Source of the DNA: Robiginitomaculum sp.
Lineage (GTDB): Bacteria; Pseudomonadota; Alphaproteobacteria; Caulobacterales; Maricaulaceae
Assembly: GCA_016765135.1 (NCBI GenBank)
Contig: JAESQN010000044.1
Span: forward strand, 64,001 to 128,000
Direction of reading: 5' to 3'
DNA: 64,000 nt
Of this stretch, positions 50,467 to 53,370 are shown piece by piece. Position numbers and translations under genes: made by a program. The notes beneath the pieces are model-generated. The model was not told the origin of the DNA, made no database searches, and was given only the letters and a program-made list of their open reading frames with translations. How positions within the stretch are numbered: the first letter of the stretch is position 1; each line of letters starts with the position of its first letter.

Positions 50467-51117
50467 CTAAATACTCTGCCCGGTCTTTTTCCAATCGGCC
50501 ATAAATGCGGCTAAACCTTTGTCGGTTAAGGCGTGGTTGGCCATATCGCGGATGACATCTGGCGGTGCGGTGGCTACATCAGCCCCTATCAGGGCGCAGT
50601 TTTCCATATGCTCCAGGGAGCGGATGGAAGCTGCGAGAATTTCGGTCTCAAAACCATAATTGTCATAGATAACGCGGATTTCCGCGATCAAATCACAACC
50701 GTCCTCACCAATATCGTCAAGACGCCCGATAAACGGTGAGATAAATGTTGCGCCCGCTTTGGCCGCCAACAGCGCCTGATTGGCCGAAAAACATAGGGTA
50801 ACATTGGTGGAAATACCTTGCGATGAAAGCGCGTTGGTCGCTTCAAGTCCGGCCCATGTTAAAGGGAGTTTGACGCAAACATTATCTGCCCAACCCGCGA
50901 CGCGCTTGCCTTCTTCGATCATGCCTTTGGTGTCCAGTGCCGTCACTTCGGCGCTAACAGGGCCGTCAACAAAGGCGCAAATTTCCTGGACGACCTCTTT
51001 GAAGTCACGTCCTGATTTGGCAATCAATGAGGGGTTGGTGGTCACACCGTCAACAAAGCCGCTGGGGATCAAGGCTTTGATGGCATCGGTTTCGGCTGTA
51101 TCAATAAAAAACTTCAT
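50467..51117 (-). CDS. Small transaldolase / fructose-6-phosphate aldolase (TalC/Fsa family)
   Basis: A 216-residue TIM-barrel aldolase. [20 protein letters not shown] at the start, [12 protein letters not shown], the Schiff-base lysine in [32 protein letters not shown] and [10 protein letters not shown] define the TalC/MipB subfamily. Members act as transaldolase in the pentose-phosphate pathway or cleave fructose-6-phosphate; sequence alone does not settle which. Ends close to palindromic copy B. Confidence 0.92.
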
Positions 51118-51207: not shown

Positions 51208-53370
51208 ATGGTAAAAATTGCAAAAATTCTGTTTCCGGTCGCCGTACCGGAACCGTTTGACTACGCTATTCCTGCGAGCATGAAGCTTGCGGCGGGGGAT
51301 TTCGTCTATGCCCCATTGGGCAAGCAGGCCAAGCTTGGTGTCGTGTGGGGGTTTGGAGAGCGAGAAGATATAGGCAAATTAAAGGAAATCTCCGAGAGTA
51401 AACCGTGCCGATCTTTGAATGCCGAAATACTGAAATTCATCAATTTTACCGCCAAATATAATTGCGCCTTGCAAGGGCTTGTGCTGCGCATGGTATTGCG
51501 TTCCCACAAGGCGCTGGAACCTAGCCCTGATGTCACGCTTTTCACACCGACAGGAGAGCAGCCAGCCGGGCTAAGTGCCACACGAAAACGGGTGTTAGGT
51601 TTATCGGATATTTGGCCAGCACGGGCAGGTGAAATCGCCAAAGCGGCAAAAGTATCCTCGTCGGTGTTGAACACAATGGCCAAGGCGGGGTTTTTGGAAA
51701 AATTCACCGCACCGCTTGATCCGCCTTTTGATATGCCAGACCCGGCCCATGACGGTCGGGCATTCGATTTGACCCCAAGACAAATATCGGCAGGCGAGGA
51801 ATTACAGGCTTTGGTACGCCAGCAAATGTTTAACGTAGCCTTGTTGGACGGGGTGACGGGGTCGGGGAAAACCGAAGTTTATTTGGAGGCGGCGGCCGAG
51901 GCCTTGCGGGCAGGGGGACAGGTGCTGATATTGGTGCCGGAAATCGCGCTAACACAAGCGGGGTTAAAACGGTTTGAGGAACGCTTTGGTGTTGAACCAG
52001 CTCAGTGGCATTCGGCAATGGGGGATGCGGCCAGGCGGCGCGTGTGGCGCGAAGTCCACGGTGGCCGAGCAAGGCTGGTGGTCGGCGCACGCTCCGCCCT
52101 GTTTTTGCCCTATGCAGATTTGCAGCTGATTGTGGTCGATGAGGAGCATGACGGCTCCTACAAGCAAGACGAAGGTGTCATTTACAATGCTCGCGATATG
52201 GCGGTGGTACGCGGTAAATTGGCGGGTGCGGCGGTGGTACTGGCCTCGGCGACCCCGTCCCTCGAAAGCCTGACCAATGCCCGTTCGGGGCGCTATCACC
52301 ATGTAATCCTGCCAGAGCGCCCCGGTGCGGCTATTATGCCAGAAGTGGCGCTGGTGGATTTGAAAGACCACAAACCCGCGCCGGGCAAGTTCTTGTCCCA
52401 GCCATTGATCGACGGGATTGGGCAAGCTTTGACACAGGGCGACCAAGCCATGCTGTATCTCAACCGGCGCGGCTATGCGCCCTTGATTATATGCCGGGCT
52501 TGCGGGGAGCGGCTGAAATCCCCTGATACAGATAGTTGGCTGGTGCAGCATAAACGCACCGGGCGGGCCATATGTCACCATACCGGATTTTCCATGCCCA
52601 TGCCGAGCGCCTGCCCGGAATGTAAAGCTGAAGACGCGCTGACCCCGGTCGGGCCGGGTGTAGAGCGGGTGGCAGAGGAATCCGCCTTATTGTTCCCTGA
52701 CGCCCGTATCGAAGTCCTATCGTCAGACACGGCGGGCAACCCTGAACGTATCCGCGAACGTATGGGGGCTATGGCAGCAGGCGAGATTGATATTCTGGTC
52801 GGCACACAAATGGTGGTCAAAGGGCATAACTTCCCGCATTTGACGTTTGTGGGCGTGGTGGATGGTGATCTCAGCTTGGGCGGTGGTGATCTGCGGGCAG
52901 GGGAGCGGACATACCAGACTTTGGTGCAGGTGGCTGGCCGGGCCGGACGGGCCGAAAAACCGGGCCGGGCCTTGATCCAGACCCACATGCCCGACCATGA
53001 GGCTCTGGTGGCATTGGCGGCGGGCGACCGTGAGGGGTTTATTGCTGCCGAGCTAGGTATGCGCGAAATTCTAGGACTGCCGCCATACGGTAAACTTGCG
53101 GCCATCATCATATCCGCCCCGGACGCGAAAAAAGCCGACGAATTTGCCAAAAAAACCCTAAATGCGGCCCCGCGTGCTGACGGTATAGAAATCCTGGGGC
53201 CATCCGAAGCTCCTATGGCCATATTACGGGGCCGTCACCGCAGACGTTTGCTGATAAAATCTGAGCCAAATGTAAATCTCTCCGCATATATGGCCATCTG
53301 GAAATCCCGCCTGCGCCCCCCCCACAAGACGAAACTGGCAATAGATATCGACCCGCAAGGCTTTATGTAA
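51208..53370 (+). CDS. priA: Primosomal replication restart helicase PriA
   Basis: A 720-residue superfamily 2 helicase that reloads DnaB at stalled forks. Walker A is LLDGVTGSGKTEVYL, the DEEH box is IVVDEEHDGSY, and later motifs are VVLASATPSLESL, YLNRRGYAPL and VQVAGRAGRAEKPG. The zinc region is unusual. CRAC and CPEC (the four Zn1 ligands) are intact, but the Zn2 pairs read SPDT instead of CPxC and CHHT instead of CHHC. Three of four Zn2 cysteines are therefore lost. ATG 51208 has no Shine-Dalgarno sequence. Confidence 0.95.
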   Translation: MVKIAKILFPVAVPEPFDYAIPASMKLAAGDFVYAPLGKQAKLGVVWGFGEREDIGKLKEISESKPCRSLNAEILKFINFTAKYNCALQGLVLRMVLRSHKALEPSPDVTLFTPTGEQPAGLSATRKRVLGLSDIWPARAGEIAKAAKVSSSVLNTMAKAGFLEKFTAPLDPPFDMPDPAHDGRAFDLTPRQISAGEELQALVRQQMFNVALLDGVTGSGKTEVYLEAAAEALRAGGQVLILVPEIALTQAGLKRFEERFGVEPAQWHSAMGDAARRRVWREVHGGRARLVVGARSALFLPYADLQLIVVDEEHDGSYKQDEGVIYNARDMAVVRGKLAGAAVVLASATPSLESLTNARSGRYHHVILPERPGAAIMPEVALVDLKDHKPAPGKFLSQPLIDGIGQALTQGDQAMLYLNRRGYAPLIICRACGERLKSPDTDSWLVQHKRTGRAICHHTGFSMPMPSACPECKAEDALTPVGPGVERVAEESALLFPDARIEVLSSDTAGNPERIRERMGAMAAGEIDILVGTQMVVKGHNFPHLTFVGVVDGDLSLGGGDLRAGERTYQTLVQVAGRAGRAEKPGRALIQTHMPDHEALVALAAGDREGFIAAELGMREILGLPPYGKLAAIIISAPDAKKADEFAKKTLNAAPRADGIEILGPSEAPMAILRGRHRRRLLIKSEPNVNLSAYMAIWKSRLRPPHKTKLAIDIDPQGFM

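Follow-up and report, generated by a model that had tools for sequence, protein, structure and literature searches.

The window, a stretch of 64,000 nucleotides from a contig of Robiginitomaculum sp., encodes a PriA protein in which one zinc site is complete and the other has retained a single cysteine. A review excerpt describes both zinc fingers of E. coli PriA as essential, in vitro for the assembly of the primosome and in vivo for replication that depends on recombination (PMC7290993). The question raised by this locus is whether the second site has decayed, has been exchanged for a construction that dispenses with the metal, or still holds zinc in a weaker form, and how far among its relatives the change extends.

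The gene is intact, its open reading frame being unbroken over 720 codons' worth of protein. The product passes both PriA equivalog cut-offs of NCBIfam (NF004070, 996.6 bits for a cut-off of 921; TIGR00595, 567 bits for a cut-off of 230), and four domains exceed their Pfam cut-offs: PF17764 (3'BD), PF00270 (DEAD), PF00271 (Helicase_C), and PF18074 (PriA_C). The catalytic motifs, Walker A GKT, DEEH, and QxxGRxGR, are all present, and residues G220, K221, T222, D311, E312, H314, Q574, G577, R578, G580, and R581 are invariant in a 49-row alignment. The nearest named records are from Robiginitomaculum and Hellea, while identity to PriAs of Sphingomonas (L064) and Thalassospiraceae (L073) with an intact second site is ~45%. 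No second PriA was found in the whole assembly, the sole further match being weak, limited to residues 212-315, and located in a 1157-aa frame. The divergent neighbour of priA is presumably a transaldolase-like or fructose-6-phosphate aldolase-like gene. Of 43 named loci, 18 (10 from the window's group and 8 with an intact second site) have an aldolase-like homologue within 3 kb upstream of priA, in the opposite orientation; none was found in the remaining 25, some of them with short flanks. Where it occurs, this neighbour argues that priA sits in its usual genomic place. Two irregular copies were seen in other genomes. In the single-contig genome G630 (C1:1314098-1316253), priA is read in two frames (L312 and L315) matching residues 1-589 and 579-720 with an overlap of ~11 residues, which may be a frameshift, a sequencing error, or a recoding site. 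In genome G014, the 72 C-terminal residues of PriA occur once more (C1:2073367-2073582, minus strand), 64% identical to those of the window; this copy lies ~2 kb away from the complete gene and may stem from a partial duplication.

Residues 429-472 of the window PriA read CRACGERLKSPDTDSWLVQHKRTGRAICHHTGFSMPMPSACPEC. From the first to the last cysteine, this stretch aligns without gaps to the E. coli and Klebsiella proteins (phmmer). In the Klebsiella PriA structure, the outer four cysteines form site Zn1 and the inner four site Zn2; the Pfam family PF18319 (Zn_ribbon_PriA, 27 positions) spans the inner ribbon, in agreement with this grouping. C429, C432, C469, and C472 align with the outer cysteines, whereas S438, T441, C456, and T459 align with the Zn2 cysteines C445, C448, C463, and C466 of E. 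coli. The window protein scores 13.0 bits with PF18319, below the gathering cut-off of 26, as compared to 34.8-39.9 bits for three Zn2-intact PriAs; two other PriAs with the replacement score 15.8 (L097) and 11.7 bits (L044), and a third (L121) gives no match up to an E-value of 1. The window PriA lacks the full set of inner cysteines, a set that is typical of the family though not demanded by its models. Compared with the E. coli and Klebsiella PriAs (PDB IDs 8FAK, 4NL4, and 6DGD), it agrees in the order of its domains, in the helicase motifs and Zn1 cysteines, and in the fold as a whole, but has S, T, C, T in place of four Zn2 cysteines. The first-pass annotation had placed an intact Zn1 and a replaced Zn2 at 52489-52632, and both the reading and the coordinates are correct by gapless alignment and codon positions; its view that the substitution affects one complete site, Zn2, and leaves the rest of PriA normal is supported as well. 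The features are collected in the table.

Features of the priA locus and of the Cys-rich region of its product (positions within the window)
Feature	Position	Strand	Basis or remark
Presumed transaldolase-like / fructose-6-phosphate aldolase-like gene, divergent neighbour of priA	50467..51117	-	context, outside the change
priA (primosomal protein N' / replication restart helicase)	51208..53370	+	720 aa; profile and domain matches
Zn1 first half (C429, C432), intact	52492..52503	+	both Cys invariant in 49-row alignment
Former Zn2 first half, S438-P-D-T441 replacing C-P-x-C	52519..52530	+	alignment to E. coli/Klebsiella
Residues 442-455 with β-hairpin (strands 446-448 and 453-455), probable strand-separation wedge	52531..52572	+	DSSP on predicted model
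Former Zn2 second half, C456-H-H-T459 replacing C-H-H-C	52573..52584	+	alignment to E. coli/Klebsiella
Newly constrained segment G460-F-S-M-P-M-P466 behind the former Zn2 site	52585..52605	+	constraint gain at S462, M463
Zn1 second half (C469, C472), intact	52612..52623	+	codon positions; 49-row alignment

The replacement is shared by all 126 genomes of the window's order with a readable site (family codes f1-f5), an order that, following GTDB, would also include Caulobacter. At the four former Zn2 positions, these genomes read STCT (44), ATCT (43), ASCT (19), TTCT (7), SACT (5), SSCT (4), SVCT (2), and ASCS (2). The set includes the 30 best matches of an order-wide scan with a Zn2-intact query (380 of 398 genomes matched), 22 genomes from a search directed to additional genera (a match in 23 of 30 genomes, one of them, G762, without the region, and none in 7), and 20 more. 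The order-wide scan gives preference to intact copies and ranks by similarity, and since the scores of intact copies (median 89.9 bits) and of replaced ones (maximum 97.8 bits) overlap, with the 30th match at 89.9 bits, only about half of the intact copies would reach the best 30; a Zn2-intact member of the order beyond the 126 genomes read is possible. One further copy (G010, L046), truncated by the end of its contig, shows the replaced form and, being too short, is not part of the 126. The first-pass annotation had held the change to be a substitution rather than a misassembly, which these genomes bear out, and had said that close relatives all having eight cysteines would point to a sequencing or strain-specific change; no such relative was found among the 126.

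Three small orders of the same class also carry the replacement, in 11 of 11 genomes read: 4/4 in f80 (five searched, four with a match, those four counted), 4/4 in f103, and 3/3 in f7. In the other alphaproteobacterial genomes, covering ~130 family codes, all four Zn2 cysteines are found in 157 of 158. This total comprises 153 genomes read by the parser (152 with four cysteines) and five more (G065, G111, G224, G240, and G303) that were missed by the motif filter and show four Zn2 cysteines each by tblastn. The exception (L170 in G346, family f36) lost the first Zn2 cysteine alone (RDNC ... CHYC); this partial change lies outside the clade and is independent of the replacement. The Zn1 cysteines are present in 100% of the 137 replaced genomes and of 138 others with standard spacing. 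Among the 43 named loci, 13 are replaced, 26 intact, and four were unread; of these last, L090 shows a cysteine at all four Zn2 positions by tblastn, and L088, L093, and L094, which are partial genes, give no match there. The 11 best matches fetched outside the order in a phylum-wide scan (L355-L365) all have four cysteines, the scan being tuned to copies of this motif, so that Zn2 losses with other motifs would escape it. In the genomes that were read, no replaced PriA was seen beyond the four orders, and an SPDT form in Rhodobacter-type PriA was not borne out.

In E. coli PriA, the Cys-rich region pivots upon fork binding and makes a pore for the lagging strand; it bears the PriB dock and a β-hairpin that is essential for unwinding and has been proposed to act as a wedge (PMC10175261, in part). 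The predicted window PriA superposes on the E. coli fork complex (8fak_H) with a Z score of 33.7 and an rmsd of 2.6 over 626 residues (VIA-align). In the predicted models, both hairpin strands are kept between the former Zn2 halves, as in a Zn2-intact control (DSSP), and the window hairpin 446-455 would correspond to the wedge hairpin of E. coli. The Zn2 pairs flank this hairpin in sequence on both sides; a zinc at Zn2 would thereby staple its base. The AlphaFold2 pLDDT values over residues 431-470 are close to those of the control (83/80/82/89 versus 84/79/81/88), an equality that is weak evidence since AlphaFold2 tends to give the family fold regardless of metal.

Three of the four Zn2 cysteines have become small residues (S/A/T, T/S/A/V, and T/S), with Zn1 and the helicase motifs unchanged. 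Across the 137 replaced genomes, position 438 is S, A, or T (A in 47%) and position 441 is T, S, A, or V (A in 4%, V in 1%). Position 456 is C in 98% (134/137) and D in 2%, position 459 is T in 96% and S in 4% (in the window's order, Ser in 2/126), H457 is found in 100%, and position 461 is aromatic in ~99%. Positions 440 (D in 66%, otherwise G, E, or N) and 442 (D in 71%, otherwise E, S, or Q) are more diverse. In f7 (L099, L121, and L260), C456 is Asp in 3/3 genomes and the site reads S, S, D, T. No new conserved set of substitute ligands stands out at the former Zn2 site. The occurrence of Ala or Val at former ligand positions and of Asp at 456 in f7 speaks against a single preserved ligand set, and the A and V found at 438 and 441 mean that there is no strictly conserved hydrogen-bond tetrad either. 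It is reasonably likely that the PriA helicase of the window is of the ordinary kind and probably active, and that its inner ribbon was rebuilt without zinc and is predicted to be metal-free. Probably, the Cys4 site was swapped, with compensation, for a packed or hydrogen-bonded and predicted metal-free site at the hairpin base.

The main rival, which we hold to be unlikely though a serious contender, is a degenerate site of low affinity in which C456 and H457, perhaps with D440 and D442, hold zinc weakly. The high conservation of C456 and H457 in the replaced genomes would fit such a weak residual metal site, and there is a precedent in the TFE-alpha of Haloferax volcanii, which has nearly the same pattern and binds zinc weakly through a single cysteine (PMC5861453, in part). 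In this degenerate zinc ribbon, cysteines 1, 2, and 4 are replaced by Ser, Ala, and Thr, and weakly bound zinc stabilises the fold (same excerpt). TFE-alpha offers the closest residue pattern, with one cysteine retained, the first changed to Ser and the fourth to Thr as in the window PriA; it differs in being an unrelated protein, in its second cysteine having become Ala, in having kept weak zinc, and in being confined to Haloferax and close relatives. Against a weak zinc site in PriA, H448 and H457 are invariant in replaced and intact PriAs alike (49-row alignment), so that they are not new ligands and the conservation of H457 is not new, even if both histidines could still bind. The Asp of f7 in place of C456, the Ala or Val seen at other former ligand positions, and the variation at 440 and 442 also count against it.

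A second explanation invokes partners: the loss of PriB or DnaT, or a new partner such as one acting in DciA/DnaB loading, would have reshaped the Zn2 side. In its favour, none of the 24 replaced genomes searched has PriB over the cut-off and a single one has DnaT, and DciA promotes DnaB loading in Caulobacter, a joint action of DciA and PriA having been called possible (PMC9825169, in part). Profile searches covered 40 genomes, these 24 and 16 Zn2-intact ones, the E. coli control being positive in both. PriB (TIGR04418) exceeded the cut-off in 0/40 genomes and in 1/14 controls, with weaker matches in G043, G081, and G361 (18-22 bits for a cut-off of 72); the model describes gammaproteobacterial PriB, so a very distant PriB could escape. 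DnaT (PF17948) exceeded it in 1/40. That sole match, in the replaced genome G035 (C12:42833-43036), is marginal (26.1 bits for a cut-off of 25). The Zn2-intact Alphaproteobacteria give 0/16 for PriB and 0/16 for DnaT, and partner absence, being common to replaced and intact genomes, cannot explain the Zn2 change. The position of the dock points the same way: on E. coli PriA, the residues through which PriB docks are D438, S481, T482, and H483 (PMC10175261, in part), which adjoin the Zn1 cysteines C439 and C479 and not Zn2. Their window counterparts are A431, A474, D476, and A477, with E475 extra; Zn2-intact alphaproteobacterial PriAs are mostly unlike E. coli at its positions 438 and 481 too. 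The suggestion of the first-pass annotation that PriB- or DnaT-like partners account for the change is thus not supported, the partners being equally absent from Zn2-intact genomes and the dock lying beside Zn1, and a partner-driven origin seems improbable.

The same annotation had suggested a relaxed need for Zn2. In favour of Zn2 being dispensable and its site decaying neutrally, there is some variation at the former ligand positions (S/A/T, T/S/A/V). In 15 genomes of the family, pN/pS is 0.146 for residues 438-466 as compared to 0.264 for the whole gene, a qualitative difference given that pS is 0.76, near saturation, and that, among 200 random windows of 29 columns, 16% fall below the ratio of the module. 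Of all PriA columns, M463 and S462 show the largest gain in constraint relative to Zn2-intact PriAs (entropy-percentile shift), the next being 505; their entropies are 0.56 and 0.48 bits in the order versus 3.29 and 3.20 bits in the intact proteins. These values compare 100 full-length sequences of the order (99 genomes, G058 being in twice) with 120 Zn2-intact ones, at mean pairwise identities of 0.57 and 0.53, and the apparent constraint is somewhat inflated by the narrower phylogenetic range of the replaced group. T459, G460, and P466 do not vary in the 100 sequences. A new conserved segment, T-G-aromatic-S-Met/Ile-x-x-P, is thereby delineated just behind the site, at positions that vary freely in Zn2-intact PriAs, and the same motif is kept in five families. 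The former Zn2 site thus bears conserved substitute residues and not the marks of random decay, and purifying selection acts on the module. The low pN/pS, the new conserved residues behind the site, and the predicted retention of the hairpin make the Zn2 change look like a rebuilt part rather than a decayed one. Relaxed selection is contradicted by these constraint analyses, which largely refute neutral decay, and we consider it very improbable. Least tenable is a sequencing, assembly, or strain artefact, or an oddity of a single genome, for which there is practically no room: all 126 readable genomes of the order, single-contig assemblies (G014 for example) among them, and named records such as Robiginitomaculum antarcticum DSM 21748 (L059) share the change, which is therefore due neither to chance nor to sequencing error.

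Returning to the exchange of the Cys4 site for a predicted metal-free one, the following course can be proposed. Zinc would once have stapled the base of the β-hairpin, the proposed wedge separating the DNA strands. This base would now be held by the small and mostly polar residues that took the place of the ligands, together with packed aromatic and Met side chains, and the wedge would keep its form despite the loss of one zinc. The starting point was probably S, S, C, S, in which each Ser is one base away from a Cys codon and which is still seen in members of f80 (1/4) and f103 (3/4). The Thr and Ala residues and the F-S-M packing would have come afterwards, the order of the steps being deduced from present-day sequences.

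The number of origins was approached with three quick PriA trees from which the Cys-rich columns were left out. By parsimony, they need 3, 5, and 4 Zn2 changes, and starred branches force at least two in each. The window's order forms one wholly replaced group (support of 90 in the 3-change tree and 97 in the 5-change tree), near which the three small replaced orders fall, mixed with Zn2-intact families. In the 5-change tree, f7 stands beside the Zn2-intact f8 (98) and three f80 sequences beside the Zn2-intact f112 (92). A single replaced clade is not rejected (AU test on 38 rows, p 0.169); a single origin of the swap is thus neither shown nor rejected, and either one ancient swap followed by gene exchange or several parallel swaps to the same motif may have taken place. 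Read literally, the gene tree would have S/A-P-x-S/T ... C-H-x-T-G-F-S-M arise more than once. It is quite conceivable, though we would not put it at even chances, that the window's order and the three small orders, separately or by common descent, turned the hairpin-anchoring zinc ribbon into a module that is free of metal and has acquired a conserved packing motif.

In its proposed way of working, the closest known system is the LID of adenylate kinase, in which zinc and polar residues are alternatives within one fold. The fourth residue of its polar tetrad would be Thr. The available part of a study of this enzyme describes two subfamilies, one having a Cys4-zinc lid and the other, at the same positions, a tetrad of polar residues joined by hydrogen bonds, given there as His, Ser, Asp, and Tyr (PMC4227292). 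The two differ in that adenylate kinase is an unrelated protein and the window PriA has S/A, T/S, C, T and a new hydrophobic segment. Within the family, the Zn2-intact alphaproteobacterial PriAs (Sphingomonas L064 and Thalassospiraceae L073) are alike in Zn1 and helicase motifs but have all four Zn2 cysteines, and the positions of the F-S-M motif vary freely.

The PriA enzyme itself is known; the clade-wide, compensated loss of one of its structural zinc sites would be new. No report of Zn2 loss in PriA was found in the open-licence literature, where absence weighs little. The separate role of each zinc would be hard to probe by mutation if cysteine mutants misfold, and the order provides a natural experiment in that its PriA is normal apart from lacking a Cys4 Zn2. 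This opens the question of whether Zn2 has any role besides stapling the hairpin, and the new segment is a candidate compensating motif for E. coli PriA. The Zn2-replaced PriA would be useful for dissecting PriA function and does not constitute a new system. If the proposed exchange is true, a helicase joins the proteins in which structural zinc has been exchanged for ordinary packing, and a repeated origin would make it a repeatable recipe for shedding a structural zinc.
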